Under the pieces are notes generated by a model. That model was given only the letters and a program-made list of their open reading frames with translations, did not search any database and had not been told where the DNA came from. From NCBI RefSeq assembly GCF_900109735.1, contig NZ_FOAS01000004.1, positions 124,001-188,000 on the forward strand: 64,000 nt of DNA, written 5' to 3'. The translations under genes were made by a program, and so were the position numbers. Shown here one piece after another: positions 9,406 to 17,627 of this stretch. Each line of letters opens with the position of its first letter. The stretch's first letter is position 1. The DNA comes from Atopomonas hussainii. Its GTDB lineage: Bacteria; Pseudomonadota; Gammaproteobacteria; Pseudomonadales; Pseudomonadaceae.

Positions 9406-9915
9406 ATGCGACAAGAGCAAGGCTACACCTTATTAGATACTGCTCTAACGGCAACACTGTTATGCATGCTTTTACCACCCGCCCTCAATGGCATCACAAC
9501 CTTCTATCGCAACAATCAACTCGCCACCGCTAGCAATGCCATGCTGGGCATCCTGAATACCGCCCGCTTCGAAGCTGTCAGCCAAAAAAAGCCAGTGTCA
9601 ATTTGCTCTGGCACAACCCAGTGCCTGACAACACGCGACTGGAAAAACCAAATCATCATATTCACAGACAGCAACCAAAATGGTTTGGTTGATGGTGATG
9701 ACAAAATCTTACTTGCCAAGAACATCGGCAACGGCAACAGCTGGACCTGGAAGAGCTTTCGCAAGCGTCACCACCTCACCTACAAGGCGGACGGCATGAC
9801 TGCCGCCTTAAACGGCACGCTCACCGACTGCCATGAAAAAAGCTCTCAGCGCGCGATTATTGTGAACCTAGCCGGCAGGCCTCGACTCGAAAAACGTAGC
9901 CCTAACAAGTGCTGA
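9406..9915 (+). CDS. fimT: Type IV minor pseudopilin FimT (GspH/FimT family)
   Basis: A 169-residue prepilin-like protein. A short basic leader ends in Gly before a hydrophobic helix (MRQEQG | YTLLDTALTATLLCMLL), and the rest resembles GspH/FimT proteins (NTARFEAVSQKKPVSICSGT, then DSNQNGLVDGDDKILL). The residue at mature position 5 is Asp rather than the usual Glu. AAGGAAG precedes the ATG. It heads the minor-pilin cluster, separated from fimU by 100 bases. FimT-type minor pilins are implicated in DNA uptake in some bacteria; here that is inference. Confidence 0.85.
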   Translation: MRQEQGYTLLDTALTATLLCMLLPPALNGITTFYRNNQLATASNAMLGILNTARFEAVSQKKPVSICSGTTQCLTTRDWKNQIIIFTDSNQNGLVDGDDKILLAKNIGNGNSWTWKSFRKRHHLTYKADGMTAALNGTLTDCHEKSSQRAIIVNLAGRPRLEKRSPNKC

Positions 9916-9941
9916 CAACCCTTCATCGGCCTTGTTGCTCG

Positions 9942-9953
9942 CCTGTCGACAGG
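9942..9953. promoter_or_regulatory. 12-bp perfect palindrome between fimT and fimU
   Basis: CCTGTCGACAGG is a perfect palindrome 63 bases upstream of the fimU start, inside the only sizeable gap of the pilin cluster. It may be a regulator-binding site for the fimU-pilE transcript; no matching known operator is recognised. A 12-base palindrome can occur by chance. Confidence 0.25.
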
Positions 9954-10015
9954 TGCTCAGTACTTCTCCTGAAGCTTTCGTATGCTACATCCATGCGCAA
10001 TGGATGAGTTCCACC

Positions 10016-10492
10016 ATGAACAAAACAGCAGGATTTACACTAATCGAACTAATGGTCGTGATCGCCATTATCGGCTTCTTAGCGGCTTGGGGTCTGCCCG
10101 CCCTAACACAGATGACTCAGCGGTCTGACGTAGCTACAGACACGAATCGGCTTTTAGCGCTTATGCAATATGCGCGCAGTGAGGCTGTAACCAACAAACA
10201 AACTGTGACCGTATGCTCCTCTACCAACGGCGCAACATGCGCTGGCGATACAAACTGGAATCAAGCCATCATCGTGCTGCAAAACGCGAATGTACTGAGA
10301 AGCACCTCAATCATCACGTCAGAAAACACCATCACACTTGATGCAGGCGGAGCCACAGAGCTGACATTTAACGCTGACGGCACCGCAAGCGCAGCTAGCG
10401 TGACTGTCTGCGCATTGCCCGGCATTGGCGACCGGCAAATTAATGTCAATGGTTCAGGCCAAGCCCGTAGTGGAGTAATCGTATGCCCCTAA
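10016..10492 (+). CDS. fimU: Type IV minor pilin FimU
   Basis: A 158-residue minor pilin with a type III leader: MNKTAG | FTLIELMVVIAIIGFLAAWG, including Gly at -1, Phe at +1 and Glu at +5. The GspH-like C-terminal part includes LLALMQYARSEAVTNKQTVT and a cysteine pair. FimU is part of the FimU-PilVWXE-PilY1 complex that primes pilus assembly. I start at ATG 10016 next to the leader, with GGATGAG upstream; an in-frame ATG lies 12 bases before. It overlaps pilV by 10 bases. Confidence 0.88.
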   Translation: MNKTAGFTLIELMVVIAIIGFLAAWGLPALTQMTQRSDVATDTNRLLALMQYARSEAVTNKQTVTVCSSTNGATCAGDTNWNQAIIVLQNANVLRSTSIITSENTITLDAGGATELTFNADGTASAASVTVCALPGIGDRQINVNGSGQARSGVIVCP

Positions 10493-11028
10493 AAAACACT
10501 CGAGGCTTTACGTTAATCGAGGTACTGGTTGCCCTGTTAATTCTTGCTGTTGGCTTACTAGGTACCGCCTCATTAATGCTGCTCAGCATGAAGTCCAACC
10601 AAAATGCCTCTCAGCGTACTCAAGCCAGCTTATTGGCCTACGACTTAGCTGAAAGAATGCGCATGAATAGAACGGTAGCCGTAGAGAACGCCGCAGGTAG
10701 CGACTACACCATGAGCCTAAAAGCTAATGACTCGCCTCCCAGTTCGCCTAACTGCTTTGGTAGCTCTACCTGCAGCAACGCCGCCCAGCGTGCCCAAGAC
10801 CTACGCGAGTGGACGGAAAACTTCATCGACATTAACGGCGTCGGCGTTGACGGCGATGATTACCGCCCCGCAATTGCAGGCAGCACCTTTGTCATTACTA
10901 AAGCCAACACCAACCAATACACCATAACCATTGAGTGGCAAGAGTCTATTAACGGCGCCAGAGCCGCTAACGATCTAGATAACGATCGAGACGTTACTAA
11001 AAGCTTCAGCCTGAACGTAGAGTTATAA
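10483..11028 (+). CDS. pilV: Type IV minor pilin PilV
   Basis: A 181-residue minor pilin with leader MPLKNTRG | FTLIEVLVALLILAVGLLG. The helix and the following QNASQRTQASLLAYDLAERM segment are typical of PilV/GspI-like proteins, and a cysteine pair follows near residue 90. Its start lies inside the 3' end of fimU and pilW begins three bases after its stop, so translation is coupled. In Pseudomonas aeruginosa PilV joins PilW, PilX and PilY1 at the pilus base and tip. Confidence 0.9.
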   Translation: MPLKNTRGFTLIEVLVALLILAVGLLGTASLMLLSMKSNQNASQRTQASLLAYDLAERMRMNRTVAVENAAGSDYTMSLKANDSPPSSPNCFGSSTCSNAAQRAQDLREWTENFIDINGVGVDGDDYRPAIAGSTFVITKANTNQYTITIEWQESINGARAANDLDNDRDVTKSFSLNVEL

Positions 11029-11031
11029 ACT

Positions 11032-12009
11032 ATGAAGCAACATAGAAAACAAAGCGGCTTATCTCTCATAGAGCTAATGATAGCCTTGCTCATCGGCAGC
11101 ATTTTATTGCTAGGCGTACTGCAATTACTCTCCCGAACCACGTCCAACGACCGAGTAAACAATGCTCTAGCGCGCACTCAAGAAAGCGCTCGAATCGCCA
11201 TTGAGTTCATTCAACGCGATGCTCGACGCGCAAACTACCTTGGCTGCGCCAATGCCAACCAACCCACAGCCGACACACCAACCAGCGCGCAAACCGCAAT
11301 CGAAACGATGTTGGTCGCTACGGTAACGGGCACAGAGGGCGCGAATGGCAGCGACACCCTTTCTCTCTCATACGCCAGCAACACCGGGGCGACACTTACT
11401 AATATCGCAAACAATGGCATCACCTTTACCCCTGAAGTTAGCCATGCTGCCAATGAAACCTTCATGTTCACCGACTGCACAAATGTCGCCGTTATAAAGA
11501 CAAACTCCAGCAGTAATAGCACAGGCAGCATCACAAGCAGCGGTAATGAGTATGATCCCCGCGGAATCAATCCGTACACACAAGACAATGCAACAGGCAA
11601 CTCTGTCCCAGTAACTTTGTGGCAAATGGCAAATGCAAGCTACAGCATAAGAGACACTGGTCGTACCAACAGCAACGGCGATCCCATAATGGGGCTATTC
11701 AGGAACAATGACGAGATCATTGAAGGCGCAGAGAACCTTCAGATCCTTTATGGCTTAGCCAGCTCGCCAACTACCACACGGTGGGTTGATGCCGACGGAC
11801 TGACAGCGGCTAACTCTCGTCAAGTCTACCGAATAAAAGTCAGTATCGTCGTGGCGTATCCAGACCCACTGATCAACGCGCCCAACGGCAATGTTCTAGC
11901 AGTAGCAGACCTGAACAATCCAACATTAGCGGCTGCAAATGACGGAAGACTGCGCAGAGCCTTTACTTCAGAAATTGACATTAGAAATCGCCAACATCTT
12001 AGGAACTGA
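11032..12009 (+). CDS. pilW: Type IV minor pilin PilW
   Basis: A 325-residue prepilin. The leader QSG | LSLIELMIALLIGSILLLG is followed by QESARIAIEFIQRDARRANY, the conserved region of PilW/GspJ-like proteins, and a long C-terminal domain with RQVYRIKVSIVVAYPD near its end. It sits three bases after pilV and two before pilX. The last residues (SEIDIRNRQHLRN) resemble other PilW tails. Role: minor-pilin priming complex. Confidence 0.88.
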   Translation: MKQHRKQSGLSLIELMIALLIGSILLLGVLQLLSRTTSNDRVNNALARTQESARIAIEFIQRDARRANYLGCANANQPTADTPTSAQTAIETMLVATVTGTEGANGSDTLSLSYASNTGATLTNIANNGITFTPEVSHAANETFMFTDCTNVAVIKTNSSSNSTGSITSSGNEYDPRGINPYTQDNATGNSVPVTLWQMANASYSIRDTGRTNSNGDPIMGLFRNNDEIIEGAENLQILYGLASSPTTTRWVDADGLTAANSRQVYRIKVSIVVAYPDPLINAPNGNVLAVADLNNPTLAAANDGRLRRAFTSEIDIRNRQHLRN

Positions 12010-12011
12010 GC

Positions 12012-12506
12012 ATGAACTACGCACCTAAAAAACAAGGCGGGATTGCACTATTAGTGAGCCTGGTACTTCTGCTCACACTAACTATCATCGCAGTCACCGC
12101 CAGCAACACAGCGTCACTGCAAGAGCGCATGGCCCTGAATTCTCAACAAAACAATACCGCCTTCCAAGCAGCCGAAAGCGGCTTAGATTTTGTAAGCACT
12201 TCAATTGAAGCAGCCGCCAAAGGCAATGCCAATATGGACACCCTTGCCAGTACGCTGACCAACAACTACAACAGCGCCACCAAGACCACCAACAGCCTTA
12301 TTAGCGTGACCGGCCGACTAGAAACAGGCAACTCATTAGGCGGCAATATTGCCACCTACCGTTATGAATATCGCAGCTGCGGCTCAGCCACATCAGTGGC
12401 TGACACTCCCGTCACAACCTGCCCTGCCAATAACGCCGACCTTGATCCTCATGTGACCGCAAAACATGCCCAAGGTTATCGCGCGCGCATAGGCGTAATA
12501 AATTAA
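12012..12506 (+). CDS. pilX: Type IV minor pilin PilX
   Basis: A 164-residue protein with leader KKQGG | IALLVSLVLLLTLTIIAVT, without Glu at +5, as is normal for PilX/GspK-type tip subunits. The sequence after the helix (SLQERMALNSQQNNTAFQAA ESGLDF) is the typical PilX_N region. Two cysteine-containing segments lie in the C-terminal half. It is followed 20 bases later by pilY1 with its own ribosome-binding site (GAGGAAA). Confidence 0.87.
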   Translation: MNYAPKKQGGIALLVSLVLLLTLTIIAVTASNTASLQERMALNSQQNNTAFQAAESGLDFVSTSIEAAAKGNANMDTLASTLTNNYNSATKTTNSLISVTGRLETGNSLGGNIATYRYEYRSCGSATSVADTPVTTCPANNADLDPHVTAKHAQGYRARIGVIN

Positions 12507-12526: not shown

Positions 12527-15500
12527 ATGAAATCAGCAAAAACGAATTTTTTTACTTTAAGCCTGGCGCTCAGTGGCAGCATTCTCAGCAGCGCACTTGC
12601 CCATGCAGATGACACTGAGGTGTTTTTCGGCGGCCCCGCTATCGACGACGCGACCAAGCCTAATGTTCTCTTTATCCTAGATAACTCAGGCTCGATGAAC
12701 TGGCGCCTCGATAACAACAACAATGCCAACGGCGTAAATTCTCGCCTCATGGTTTTAAAAGAAGCCTTTCAAGACATCGTCTACAATAGCAGCGGCATTA
12801 ACGTCGGTGTTATGGCGCTTAATCCTCGCGCCGAATACGGCAACACACGGATGATTTACCCGGTCACATATATTGACCAAGAACTCCCCACAGATGCTAC
12901 TCAAGTAGCGGGCACGCCTAGCATTCTGACCAGTGCCGACGATGCCGTTCAAGATCTTACCGGGCCAAACGCAGGCTCTGCGAATCTCAATACATCAAGC
13001 CTAGGCATGGGGCAAATTTCTGTTAGCACTAACGTCAGTCAGTCAAACAATATTACTTTGACAGGTGCTGGCGCTTTTTACTTGAAGAGCAATACCACCT
13101 GCCGTCTTACCCCAACGACAGACCCCAGCGGAGCTTGCCAAACCACCACGTTAAAAGACATCACGATAGATGGTAATGGCTCGCAGCCCAACAATGCACT
13201 ATTCCACTTTAGTGGGTTTAATATTCCCTCCGGCGCAACCATTGACGACGCCTACATCACATTCAGCGAAACTAATAGCAAAAACCATAAAGCCCCTTTT
13301 AGCTTTACCTTCGAGAACAGTGCGACGCCGAGCCTGCCCAATCACGGCACCCCGCTAGACAGCGCAAAAGTCTTTCTACCTAGCACCACGATATCGTCTA
13401 ACAGCAACTGGAAGAACTCGCCTGCCTCTTTCACCGTAACCAGTAGCATTCAAGCCATTGTAAACAGCAATATTGGCTCGGCGATAAACTCTGTACTGGT
13501 TTCAGTACAACCGACCAACAATACCAATTACACATTCTGCGCCAACCCTAATTCGTGCGGCGGCAACAGCCCCCGACTAGTTATTCAGTACACCTCTGCC
13601 CTAACCAGCACAGAGCAACGCATGACCGCTCTGCGCTTTCAGAACGTCGGCATCCCCCAAGGTGCTGTCATCACCAGCGCCGTACTCGGTTTTGCCCCGG
13701 CAGCCACGAGCGCCGTTGCAGACAACCCGAGCTTTTCAATCAAAGCCCAAGCAGCAAGTGACAGCGCTGCCTTTACTGCCGGCGAAAACTTAAACAGTCG
13801 TTCCAAAACTGTCGCCACTACCACTTGGACCCCTCCAAGCTGGACGGTACAAAACCCCTCTGTCGTCGAACCTGGCCCGGATGTAACCAACGTAGTACAG
13901 GAAGTTGTTAACCGTAGCGACTGGTGTGGCAACAACGCCATGGCGTTCTTTGTCACCCCGCTCACCGTCGGCTATAGAGCAGCCTGGAGCATTGATGGCG
14001 CACAAGGCCTACAGCCAACACTGACCATCAACTACACCGGCGGCAGTGGCTGTAATAACCCCATCGTTGAAACACGCGTTGGCGCCGAAAAGAACGATGG
14101 CGATCAGAACCTAAATAGCAATGCCAATTTAGGCAATAGCGTGCTCAATACACGCTATGCAGGCGCTCGCTTTGAAAAGCTGCCTATTCGCCGCAACGCA
14201 ACAATCATGGAAGCCAGCATTACTGTCACCCCAAGTAGTTCGATCACTTCAGGCGCAACTTTCACGCCGTTCATTCAAAACATTGGCAGCGCCCCTGAGC
14301 TATCGGCCGCTTACAATAACCTATCAGCACGAGCCAACATCAATGGCGGCACGTGCACTATTACTAGCAGCACTGGCAACTGGCCTGCAGACAAGCCTTA
14401 TACATGCAGCTCTACAGCGCTTAAAAACGCGCTACAAGCACTAGTTAATCGTGGCGACTGGGTGCCCAGCAATGATGTGGCAATTATTCTAGACAAAGGC
14501 AACAGCACCATCCCTATCAAGGCCTTTGAAAGCAACCCGGCTGAATCTATTAAGTTACGCATCAAAGTAGCCAATGGCGGATTAGATTCCTCAACTAACA
14601 CCGTACGTTATCAAGTTAACTCTCTAGTTCAATCAATGTATGCAGGCAACGGCACCCCTGTCGTTCCCGCCATGTACGATGCTGCTCAATATTTACGCGG
14701 CAACAGCAGTCCTATTACTAGCGCCTGTCAGTCAACCCATACCGTACTTCTCACCGACGGGGTGGCTAACTCAAACACCACAGCCGCTAAAAACGGGATT
14801 GGCTCACTCATTGGCTCAAGTTGCACGGGCGACTCTGGCAATGATGGCGAGCGCTGTGCACGTTCACTTTCAGAGTGGTGGGCAACACAAGATCAGACTC
14901 CGACAATTTCTGGTGACAACTTCGTAACCACGCATACTGTTGGCTTTGCCTTGGACGCCTCAGATGCAGCAACCAGCGCATCTATTAAAGACTTTCTGCA
15001 GGATCTTGCTACTGAAGGCGGTGGTACTTTCAACACCGCTAGCAATGCCTCAGACCTGACTCAAGTCTTTAACAATATCATTCAAGAGGTGTTAGCGACC
15101 GACACCACCTTTGTAAGTCCCGGCGCTACTGTTAACCAGTTCGAACGAACCGAGAACAAGAATGAAGTTTACTTCGCACTGTTCAAGCCATCTGATACTG
15201 ACCGCTGGGTTGGCAACCTCAAGCGCTTTAGTATTGACGATGGCACAGGTGATTTAAGCAAACTGATCTTAGATCGTGACGGCATCGCTGCAGTAGACCC
15301 ATTAACAGGCGGCTTTAAAACAACCTCACGAAGCTTCTGGTCCACCTCTGCCGACGGCAACAACACTGCTAATGGTGGGGCTGCATCGCAAATCCCCACA
15401 GCCGCTAGCAGAAACTTGCGCACTTATATCGGCAACGCTCCTAGCAGCCCAGTAACCCTCAATACCGCCGCGACAGAGCTGAGCAACAACAACACAAGCA

Positions 15501-17206
15501 TCCTTAATGGCCATTTAAATGCCACCGATGATGCAGAGCGCGTTAGCCTCATCAACTGGATTCGCGGGCAAAACGATGATAGTAGCCAGCGCAAGGCCAT
15601 GGGCGATCCACTGCACTCGGTACCTCAGCTAGTTACTTATGGCTGTACTGCCTGGTCAGGCGAGACTTGCACCAGCGAAGATCAAAGCGTTTATGTAGGC
15701 ACTAACGAAGGCTTTATTCAGGCGTTTAACACCAACACGGGTGCTGAACAGTTCGCCTTCATGCCGCAAGCCTTGCTTTCAAATATCAAAAAGCTGAAAA
15801 CAAACGCCAAAACAGCCTCCCCTAACCCCAAGCCTTATGGCATGGATAATAGTGTGCTGATTTGGAAAAACGACCTTAACGGCAACGGCCTTATCTACGG
15901 AGATATTGGCACTTCCAGCACCAGCCTCAACACTGGCGAATTTGTCTACCTCTACGCAACCATGCGCCGTGGTGGCCGTGACATATACGCCCTAGACATT
16001 ACCAACCGCTCATCACCACGCCTGCTATGGCAAATCCAAGGGGGCGTTACACCTGGGTTTGAGTACTTAGGTCAAACTTGGTCAGTGCCGGTGCGCGGTA
16101 AAATTAAGGTTGGCAGCGTAGATAAGAACGTGCTGATCTTTGGTGGCGGTTACAACCCGGCACAAGACAATGTCGATGTTCGCACTGCTGACACCTACGG
16201 CAACGCACTCTATATTGTCGATGCCGAAACCGGCAGCTTAATTTGGTCAGCTAGCAGTTTTGCTGGCCATACCAAAACTTTCACCAAAATGAAGTATTCC
16301 ATGCCTGCCTCACCGCGCATTTACGACATTGACGGTGACGGTTTAACCGATCAAATTCTGATTGGCGACGTAGGAGGTCAGCTCTGGCGCTTCTTCATCA
16401 ACAAAGGAGAGTCTGGCAGCAGCCTAGTCACTGGCATCGACAGTAACGGTAACAGCTCAGCAGACAATGCAGACGGTGTTATGGCGGACGTTGTGCCAAG
16501 TAACTACAGCTCTCTGACATTAGAGCAGCGCCAAGCCAATACTCGCCGGTTCTATAACACGCCTGACGCGGTGCTTCTGCAAACAGCTAGCGGCACATCC
16601 CTGGTCGTCAACATTGGCTCGGGCTATCGTGCCCACCCCTTAAGCACCCGGACGACTGACCGCTTCTACTCGTTCCGAAGCAGCATTACCTACAACCCAG
16701 CCAACGGAGCCCCTGGCACCAATACTGCCCTGACTGAAAGCGCGCTGTATGATGCCACTGACAACCTTGTACAAAGCGGTAGTAGCGCGGCACAAGAGGA
16801 AGCCGCAGAAGCCTTCGCAGAGCGTAATGGGGGCTGGTTTATTACTCTGACAGGAACCGGTGAAAAGAACCTAACTCGCGCACTTACTATTGAGGGCGTG
16901 ATCACTTTCACCACTTACGAGCCAACGGCCAATACTGCTGACTGTCGCGCTTCCGCCGGCATCAACTGGCGCTATGAAGTTAATCTTTATGATGCCACGC
17001 CGTTACCTGGAAACATTGACTCAACCAGCGGCAACGCCACACGAAAAACGAAGTTAAACTCTGGCGGTATTTCGGGTGACACTACTGTTCTGATTCGTGA
17101 CAACAGCAGTGGCGGCAGCAGTGGTGTCAAATGTAACGGCATCGAGTGTGAGGAATTTGACTTCAAATCCGGCACCGGCAAAATTTTCTGGATTGACGAG
17201 CTCTGA
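12527..17206 (+). CDS. pilY1: Type IV pilus tip adhesin PilY1, extended form
   Basis: A 1,559-residue exported protein, some 400 residues longer than the P. aeruginosa PilY1 I know. A signal peptide covers about residues 1-27. A von Willebrand A domain starts near residue 46 with the MIDAS motif DNSGSM (Asp52), is interrupted near residue 125 and resumes near residue 692 (LLTDGVANSNT). The inserted 560 or so residues hold three similar beta-rich units (about 211-355, 360-503 and 520-685), each with an RF-type first strand, a VN(R/S)-type helix and a closing LTINY-like strand. The C-terminal beta-propeller has the PilY1 calcium-loop motif DIDGDGLTD (Asp1267-Asp1275). PilY1 works at the pilus tip in adhesion and surface sensing. 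The insertion is the odd part; see findings. Confidence 0.92.
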   Translation: MKSAKTNFFTLSLALSGSILSSALAHADDTEVFFGGPAIDDATKPNVLFILDNSGSMNWRLDNNNNANGVNSRLMVLKEAFQDIVYNSSGINVGVMALNPRAEYGNTRMIYPVTYIDQELPTDATQVAGTPSILTSADDAVQDLTGPNAGSANLNTSSLGMGQISVSTNVSQSNNITLTGAGAFYLKSNTTCRLTPTTDPSGACQTTTLKDITIDGNGSQPNNALFHFSGFNIPSGATIDDAYITFSETNSKNHKAPFSFTFENSATPSLPNHGTPLDSAKVFLPSTTISSNSNWKNSPASFTVTSSIQAIVNSNIGSAINSVLVSVQPTNNTNYTFCANPNSCGGNSPRLVIQYTSALTSTEQRMTALRFQNVGIPQGAVITSAVLGFAPAATSAVADNPSFSIKAQAASDSAAFTAGENLNSRSKTVATTTWTPPSWTVQNPSVVEPGPDVTNVVQEVVNRSDWCGNNAMAFFVTPLTVGYRAAWSIDGAQGLQPTLTINYTGGSGCNNPIVETRVGAEKNDGDQNLNSNANLGNSVLNTRYAGARFEKLPIRRNATIMEASITVTPSSSITSGATFTPFIQNIGSAPELSAAYNNLSARANINGGTCTITSSTGNWPADKPYTCSSTALKNALQALVNRGDWVPSNDVAIILDKGNSTIPIKAFESNPAESIKLRIKVANGGLDSSTNTVRYQVNSLVQSMYAGNGTPVVPAMYDAAQYLRGNSSPITSACQSTHTVLLTDGVANSNTTAAKNGIGSLIGSSCTGDSGNDGERCARSLSEWWATQDQTPTISGDNFVTTHTVGFALDASDAATSASIKDFLQDLATEGGGTFNTASNASDLTQVFNNIIQEVLATDTTFVSPGATVNQFERTENKNEVYFALFKPSDTDRWVGNLKRFSIDDGTGDLSKLILDRDGIAAVDPLTGGFKTTSRSFWSTSADGNNTANGGAASQIPTAASRNLRTYIGNAPSSPVTLNTAATELSNNNTSILNGHLNATDDAERVSLINWIRGQNDDSSQRKAMGDPLHSVPQLVTYGCTAWSGETCTSEDQSVYVGTNEGFIQAFNTNTGAEQFAFMPQALLSNIKKLKTNAKTASPNPKPYGMDNSVLIWKNDLNGNGLIYGDIGTSSTSLNTGEFVYLYATMRRGGRDIYALDITNRSSPRLLWQIQGGVTPGFEYLGQTWSVPVRGKIKVGSVDKNVLIFGGGYNPAQDNVDVRTADTYGNALYIVDAETGSLIWSASSFAGHTKTFTKMKYSMPASPRIYDIDGDGLTDQILIGDVGGQLWRFFINKGESGSSLVTGIDSNGNSSADNADGVMADVVPSNYSSLTLEQRQANTRRFYNTPDAVLLQTASGTSLVVNIGSGYRAHPLSTRTTDRFYSFRSSITYNPANGAPGTNTALTESALYDATDNLVQSGSSAAQEEAAEAFAERNGGWFITLTGTGEKNLTRALTIEGVITFTTYEPTANTADCRASAGINWRYEVNLYDATPLPGNIDSTSGNATRKTKLNSGGISGDTTVLIRDNSSGGSSGVKCNGIECEEFDFKSGTGKIFWIDEL

Positions 17207-17213
17207 GGCCCTA

Positions 17214-17627
17214 ATGAACAGCCATCACCGTGGTTTTACATTGATTGAGTTGATGATGGTCATAGCGATCATTGGCATTATCGCCGCAATCGCTATCCCT
17301 AATTATCAAACCTATATCAACAACACTGCCTGTGAGAACGCCAAAAGCGTCCTCACAGGCGCCGCCACCATCATGGAGAGCCATCGCGCACAAACCCAAT
17401 CCTATGCGGGAGCCAACTTAGGAGCGTATAGCCAAGCCCCCGTGGATGGCGGCGCGATCTTTAACGTAGCGATAACCGCCTCAAATGCTTCAAGCTACAC
17501 GCTAACGGCAACTCCCCTTAATCCTGGTCGACTGGCAGGCCAAGGCACTCTGACGCTCACATCAGCCGGCATCCGCGGCGGCACCGGCAACTTCGCTACC
17601 GCCTGGGACGAAGGATGCAGCCTGTAA
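17214..17627 (+). CDS. pilE: Type IV minor pilin PilE
   Basis: A 137-residue pilin-like protein with leader MNSHHRG | FTLIELMMVIAIIGIIAAIA and the pilin helix continuation IPNYQTYINNTACENAKSVL. Two cysteines bracket the globular domain (one at about residue 40, one in the final GCSL). The start is four bases... after the TGAGG at the end of pilY1; the long open frame upstream is in the pilY1 region and not coding. In P. aeruginosa a small pilY2 gene lies between pilY1 and pilE; none fits here. A strong hairpin follows. Confidence 0.9.
   Translation: MNSHHRGFTLIELMMVIAIIGIIAAIAIPNYQTYINNTACENAKSVLTGAATIMESHRAQTQSYAGANLGAYSQAPVDGGAIFNVAITASNASSYTLTATPLNPGRLAGQGTLTLTSAGIRGGTGNFATAWDEGCSL

Follow-up and report, generated by a model that had tools for sequence, protein, structure and literature searches.

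The PilY1 protein encoded in the window (the whole 64,000-nucleotide stretch of Atopomonas hussainii DNA analysed here) is probably an ordinary PilY1 of its lineage that carries lineage-specific, DNRLRE/CBM96-like β-sandwich modules in the β3–α2 loop of its vWA domain, where they would most likely act as binding lobes. How a single pilus type can hold on to many surfaces has yet to be explained; the vWA domain at the pilus tip is the supposed touch sensor. In P. aeruginosa PilY1 this domain is described both as touch sensor and as an adhesin with important cysteines (PMC9210963, PMC11891296). That protein resembles ours in its tip vWA domain with a MIDAS and its propeller C terminus, whereas its vWA domain is given as about 26 kDa in a review, a size that would imply that it has no such insert.

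The pilY1 gene (12527..17206, + strand) is an open frame of 1,559 residues, of which about the first 27 are expected by eye to form a signal peptide. Residues 1049–1294 (15671..16408, +) match the PilY1 β-propeller family PF05567 (E 1e-12; 48.2 bits against a cut-off of 28.1) and include DIDGDGLTD at residues 1267–1275; the protein sequence also matches 3hx6 (1.5e-12). No second PilY1 propeller match was found in the A. hussainii genome. Immediately upstream lie minor pilin genes (9406..12506, +), two of GspH type (FimT/FimU-like) followed by PilV-like, PilW and PilX genes; we take the FimT, FimU and PilV names from gene position and from the usual make-up of such clusters. A PilE-like minor pilin gene, named by its position, follows downstream (17220..17627, +) with ComP_DUS and N_methyl matches, and behind it are lytB/ispH and an FKBP gene. 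The propeller, a vWA domain with a complete MIDAS and the minor-pilin setting together identify the product as a PilY1/PilC tip protein.

The same surroundings recur in relatives. A PilE-like gene and IspH lie behind pilY1 in 21 of the 23 insert-carrying Pseudomonadaceae loci (L033–L055), the contigs of the other two (L045, L055) ending before that position, and ThiO lies upstream in 21 of the 23 (it was not found in L035 and L047); some minor pilins have no match in some of these 23 loci. The conserved minor pilin and IspH surroundings indicate that this is the usual chromosomal position of pilY1, occupied by an unusual allele. An origin of the insert in a frameshift or in misassembly was rejected, since the frame is open and 33 other loci have a similar arrangement.

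The vWA domain is encoded in two pieces. The first, residues 28–127 (12608..12907, +), supplies β1, α1, β2 and β3 and contains the MIDAS motif DNSGSM at residues 52–57 (12680..12697, +); the second, residues 693–860 (14603..15106, +), runs from α2 onwards and contains the MIDAS residues Thr710, in GNGTP (707–711), and Asp744, in LLTDG (741–745). Each half is matched separately and below Pfam cut-offs (VWA_2 at residues 47–102, VWA at 696–848). The initial annotation had proposed that the domain is split by an insertion spanning residues 125–690 or so; the split stands, with the two halves about 565 residues apart, and the limits of the insert are refined to about residues 128–692. Counted only for frames in which both motifs were found, the distance from MIDAS to TDG is 687–711 residues in 11 insert-carrying frames (L001–L010 and L012, our own included), as against 179–180 in three insert-free PilY1s (L021, L022, L026) and 338 in L024. 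Matches to the NF040680 chromoprotein (E 0.0024) and to CglB lie far under cut-off, and we attributed them to chance or to general vWA similarity.

Modelling of residues 28–860 with AlphaFold2 (833 residues, 34 alignment rows) gave a pLDDT of 87.6 and a pTM of 0.73. Structural alignment with VIA-align recovered a complete vWA domain built from residues of both ends of the model, with 4fx5 (Z 20.5, 182 residues aligned, 2.3 Å), S. sanguinis PilB 7b7p (Z 20.4, 213 aligned, 2.9 Å) and Mfa5 6tnj (Z 20.1, 200 aligned, 3.1 Å) as matches. S. sanguinis PilB is thus a pilus vWA protein of matching fold, one in which the vWA domain is borne on a pilin, and we know of no DNRLRE-type module in it. The vWA domain is therefore predicted, on the model, to fold around the insert and to keep a full MIDAS (DNSGSM, Thr710 and Asp744) by the customary rule. 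Predicted secondary structure places the insert between strand 80–88 (β3) and helix 666–675 (α2) in model numbering, a loop that, from known vWA topology, would lie on the face opposite the MIDAS. The MIDAS rule is also set out in PMC9210963.

The insert itself is made of three homologous units of about 185–193 residues. Unit 1 occupies about residues 164–356 (13016..13594, +). Unit 2 is divided into a lead, or first-strand, segment at about residues 128–163 (12908..13015, +) and a core at about 357–508 (13595..14050, +) with WCGNN at 466–470, and unit 3 follows in tandem at about 509–692 (14051..14602, +). Profile–profile comparison, with 12 long sequences per unit including our own, gave probabilities of 97.7% for units 1 and 2, 98.9% for units 2 and 3 and 95.4% for units 1 and 3, while controls (one reversed and five shuffled profiles per pair) reached at most 1.2%. 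The units share a conserved core of DDAEE, LRF, IPxGAxI, VQExVxRxxW and GN. Three related units had already been suspected from the letters alone, and the 95.4–98.9% scores against controls of no more than 1.2% bear this out; the size of 145–165 residues then assigned to them was too small, and the picture of three units in a simple row does not hold, unit 1 being nested.

Cysteines of the insert are conserved to different depths. Cys467 (13925..13927, +) and Cys509 (14051..14053, +) are kept in all 34 insert-carrying PilY1 rows, whereas Cys192/204 and Cys610/627 are shared by the 23 rows from Pseudomonadaceae. Standalone units, as seen in the alignment of non-PilY1 copies, lack the WCG cysteine. 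Cys467 may pair with Cys509, and disulfides would then stabilise the insert.

The nesting of unit 1 emerged from copies of the domain outside PilY1. By tblastn, about residues 362–503 matched Sinorhizobium and Ensifer plasmids (41% and 39% identity; L031, L032), whose cadherin-type surface proteins have the domain uninterrupted. When residues 128–163 are joined to core residues 360–508, the resulting profile matches these domains over their full length, with E values as low as 1e-34. It also fits L013 (model positions 5–178), whose PilY1 lacks unit 1 and has a contiguous unit 2. These contiguous end-to-end matches identify residues 128–163 as the first segment of unit 2, behind which unit 1 has been inserted. 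When lead and core profiles were built from ten non-PilY1 domains only, and leads were accepted at a loose threshold (E up to 5), the order lead, lead, core, core, lead, core appeared in 9 of 34 PilY1 rows (L056–L064), the second lead being weak in two of the nine (L059, L061) and both leads visible by eye in L062 and L064. In none of the 34 rows did a lead hit separate core 1 from core 2, although core 1 itself went unmatched in L045; three stray hits of the lead profile lay within cores (L036, L049, L059).

We also asked how much the distant lead adds to the score of the unit 2 core, taking the best single domain because the adjoining segment would otherwise score as if the end of the domain were present twice. 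Adding the distant lead raised the score by a median of 7.2 bits, compared with 2.15 for the segment adjoining the core; it outscored every one of 20 shuffles in 20 of the 34 rows and fell short of at least one shuffle in the other 14, whereas for the adjoining segment a clean win of this kind occurred in 2 of 34. The distant lead outscored the adjoining segment in 28 of the 34 rows, the reverse holding in L033, L042, L046, L047, L050 and L067. The lead signal is weak in the Pseudomonadaceae rows (in the window PilY1 +8.6 bits against +6.3 for its best shuffle), and this, with the six reversed rows, is what could be said for three separate modules in a row, with the lead a mere linker and unit 2 having lost its first strand. 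We regard that arrangement as very improbable and disfavour it: it sits badly with the lead-lead-core-core order in nine rows, with the contiguous unit 2 of L013, which has no unit 1, and with the two contiguous units of L154, which stand in tandem and unnested. Unit 1 is nested in a split unit 2, and unit 3 follows in tandem. In the preferred architecture units 2 and 3 would form the first-level insert and unit 1 would occupy a loop after the first strand segment of unit 2.

To which family do the units belong? In Foldseek searches with the 833-residue model, 8wab ranked 3–4 and 7vbo 23rd, mixed with Reelin and PHM chains of low TM-score, and for this reason unit 3 was folded alone (residues 512–691, 33 rows; pLDDT 95, pTM 0.89). 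Foldseek then listed 8wab first (E 6.1e-5), the BMP9 prodomain 4yci second (1.1e-4) and 7vbo twentieth (3.9e-3), and VIA aligned unit 3 with 8wab at Z 14.1 (150 residues, 3.1 Å) and with 7vbo at Z 12.2 (144 residues, 3.1 Å), BMP/TGF-β prodomains coming next from Z 10.8. 8wab is a chondroitin sulfate-binding module, named a DNRLRE protein, and 7vbo is the alginate CBM96 module of Dp0100. Unit 3 as modelled thus has the two-sheet β-sandwich topology of CBM96/DNRLRE domains, which is common to BMP/TGF-β prodomains; the CBM96 paper describes a similar resemblance of 7vbo to the prodomains (PMC9971899).

Sequence comparison places the same relationship at a distance. CBM96 was found in none of 60 genomes of the phylum and in 5 of 12 unit-carrying genomes, so CBM96 sequences were drawn from the latter, and a profile was made by aligning ten sequences found with PF24517. 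Against PDB sequences this profile found 8wab (8.7e-20), 7vbo (2.2e-17) and BMP9 (1.1e-5). Profile–profile comparison with it gave 73.6% for the unit family (E 2.9e-5), 94.2% for unit 1, 37% for unit 2 and 0.9% for unit 3; the best of 30 shuffles scored 17.4 against 36.9 for the family and 14.0 against 51.8 for unit 1, and the two vWA pieces reached 0.1%. By reading, the order of conserved segments agrees between the unit and CBM96 alignments, and Arg365, just before LRF, may correspond to Arg36 of 7vbo. The DNRLRE model NF033679 lists all ten CBM96 sequences (best 8.1e-28) and, within E ≤ 1, picked up 13 of the 28 units, the best of them at 9.4e-6 and member 1 at 25.6 bits; none of the 28 reached its curated cut-off of 34 bits, and the window PilY1 gave no match at E ≤ 10. 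Pfam CBM96 (PF24517) matched none of the 28 units at E ≤ 1, no Pfam family was found for any of the 28 scanned units, and neither Pfam nor NCBIfam offered one for the window insert. A PHROGs search returned one weak match, and the sole PDB-sequence match of the unit-family profile, a cyanovirin (E 0.066), was dismissed as chance.

We place the units on a distant branch of the DNRLRE/CBM96 group, outside its membership as the curated cut-offs define it. The DNRLRE relationship guessed at in the initial annotation consequently survives as distant kinship, through the top two VIA matches of unit 3 and the 13 of 28 NF033679 hits, and fails as membership at curated cut-offs; the wider suggestion of a carbohydrate-binding fold is upheld by the structural matches of unit 3 to 8wab and 7vbo. 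Compared with known DNRLRE/CBM96 domains, the predicted fold is alike over nearly the whole domain, with a sub-cut-off sequence match and a profile match, whereas the window units have a conserved core of their own and sit nested inside a pilus tip protein.

The insert is patchily distributed and occurs as a series. In the family survey 116 of 148 genomes match the window PilY1 somewhere, yet units were found in only 17 of 148 genomes and 6 of 19 genera, so that the insert is not universal in the lineage, a possibility raised at the outset. Our own genome has three unit matches, all within the window PilY1. The class survey found units in 40 of 369 genomes and a profile scan of genome contigs gave 49 loci. 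Carriers include P. nitroreducens, P. citronellolis, P. jinjuensis, P. mendocina and P. alcaligenes, among other Pseudomonas, and gammaproteobacterial MAGs of Sedimenticola, Crenotrichaceae and Albibeggiatoa. No unit was found in the PilY1s of L014–L022 and L025–L030; the PilY1 of L024 has one diverged unit (match 1.2e-9), those of L013, L154 and L159 have two, most of L033–L064 have three, and that of L069 has four, two of which appear nested in unit 2. This series suggests that tandem capture came first and nesting later, with losses possible.

On a tree built from C-terminal sequence (63 rows, of which 56 are distinct) the insert label changed three times, against a mean of 14.4 for shuffled labels and with none of 500 shuffles as low, a count that is rough, long branches meeting in the tree. 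The labels are rough as well: L024 was labelled 'none' despite its diverged unit, L066–L068 were labelled by hand, and L036, L040 and L045 were entered as two units where other scans point to three. One MAG titled Candidatus Polarisedimenticolaceae (L059; Acidobacteriota in NCBI) has a PilY1 that falls among the Sedimenticola-type proteins, which may reflect a wrong label, a mixed bin or a transfer. PilY1 frames of 1,631–1,709 residues in three genomes of the family (L198–L200; G018, G026 and G007) have other N-terminal expansions, with about 1,090–1,140 residues before the C-terminal match and no unit found.

The same module was captured by a vWA domain at a second place. In two Desulfobacteraceae MAGs (L077, L081) two whole units precede the PilY1 vWA domain, and its DVSGSM or DVSSSM motif is soon followed by a C-terminal half-unit, an N-terminal half-unit and the post-MIDAS helix, in that order. 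On the 174-position unit model the halves cover 113–173 then 3–122 in G214 (L077), 116–172 then 2–130 in G215 (L081), 115–171 then 2–130 in G625, 115–172 then 2–122 in G600 and 113–172 then 2–131 in G602. The permuted form is present in five genomes (L077, L081, L162, L163, L164), with DxSxS directly before the first half in all five; in the order of G214, 9 of 76 genomes have any unit match and 4, G214 included, have the permuted form. The order of the halves is, as read from sequence, that of a circularly permuted domain, which could have arisen by a cut across two neighbouring tandem copies.

What might such modules do at a pilus tip? They would most likely provide extra lobes that bind extracellular polysaccharide, acidic or otherwise, or material on surfaces. 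Such lobes may, as the initial annotation proposed, alter what the pilus binds. The best VIA fold relatives bind polysaccharide, the modules sit at the tip, and insertion into the vWA domain has a precedent in ComC. Glycan binding by the modules would follow by analogy. It is weakened by a fold held in common with protein-binding prodomains and by a unit 2 lead that contains no Lys or Arg, where CBM96 uses lysines for alginate. With the insert anchored in the vWA domain at either end, at β3 and α2, a bound lobe would pull directly on that domain during pilus retraction, a load path that we infer from the predicted topology.

BMP/TGF-β prodomains bind proteins, so the ligand cannot be read from the fold, and a role in protein docking or shielding, in which the insert binds minor pilins or partner adhesins or masks the vWA domain from phages, protists or antibodies, has to be weighed. 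It would also suit the finding that other members of the family have other PilY1 N termini at the same position, as diversifying surface proteins do (IspH is near in 10 of 16 fetched PilY1 regions and none of the 16 PilY1 frames has a unit), while the adjacent genes, being ordinary minor pilins, speak against it; we think it quite unlikely. Somewhat less unlikely, though still not favoured, is that the modules bind no ligand and merely enlarge the tip or hold the vWA domain off the cell or pilus as an inert spacer or stiffener. Inserts of relatives that are only 34–42% identical to that of the window, 11 cysteines in residues 28–860, a unit number that varies among 0, 1, 2, 3 and 4, and the same modules adjoining cadherin, Ig or Calx-beta domains in other surface proteins are all what a spacer might show. 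A spacer would need neither nesting nor placement inside a vWA domain, and the top VIA fold matches of unit 3 bind polysaccharide.

Binding lobes thus remain our preferred reading, and the Acinetobacter ComC finger is the nearest precedent: it provides evidence that an insertion in the vWA domain of a PilY1 homologue matters (PMC10374093). Both cases are lineage-specific insertions in the vWA domain of a T4aP tip adhesin, and the fingers of two ComC variants are said to differ in position and origin (PMC10374093). The ComC finger, by contrast, is described as a short protrusion with a Tyr-rich motif, tested by deletion of residues 166–256, and not a folded triple module (PMC10374093). The window insert contains no short Tyr-rich finger of this type: it has 9 Tyr in residues 128–692 and three modules of about 185–193 residues, of which unit 3 is modelled as a β-sandwich. 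Titles and abstracts of open papers on PilY1, on DNRLRE domains and on inserted or permuted domains gave no report of DNRLRE-type modules in PilY1; insertion into the vWA domain of pilus tip adhesins is known, whereas the DNRLRE-type module, its nesting and its permuted capture were not found in print within the same sources.

A broader reading, which we hold tentatively and think rather doubtful, is that the vWA domain is an open docking platform that has repeatedly captured DNRLRE-type modules (tandem and nested at β3–α2 in Gammaproteobacteria, permuted behind the MIDAS in Desulfobacteraceae-type genomes), with the ligand-bound module acting as a lever arm that puts load straight onto the vWA mechanosensor. 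Binding and force sensing would then be coupled in one chain. The natural series of vWA domains, with 0 to 4 folded modules in one loop and a permuted one in a different loop, allows direct tests of whether tip modules determine what pili bind and whether load on them is passed to the sensor.

P. aeruginosa PilY1 is described as having an integrin-binding RGD, in another region of the protein (PMC11891296). An RGD also occurs at residues 642–644 of the window PilY1 (14450..14458), inside the NRGDW of unit 3; with RGD there in none of 11 aligned relatives, we rejected it as a conserved integrin motif, and it is probably there by chance.

Beyond PilY1, the units represent a surface domain family that extends across several phyla and for which the version of Pfam searched gave no match. 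Continuous units occur in large proteins of Planctomycetota, Verrucomicrobia, Chloroflexi, Bacteroidota and Sulfurovum, and in five scanned large proteins their neighbours are metallophosphatase, cadherin, Ig, PA14, Calx-beta and peptidase domains. On the Sinorhizobium and Ensifer megaplasmids (L031, L032) adjacent genes for large surface-type proteins carry one or two units each. Together with the large proteins of L070–L073, L075, L076 and others, such copies are candidates for a new family model.
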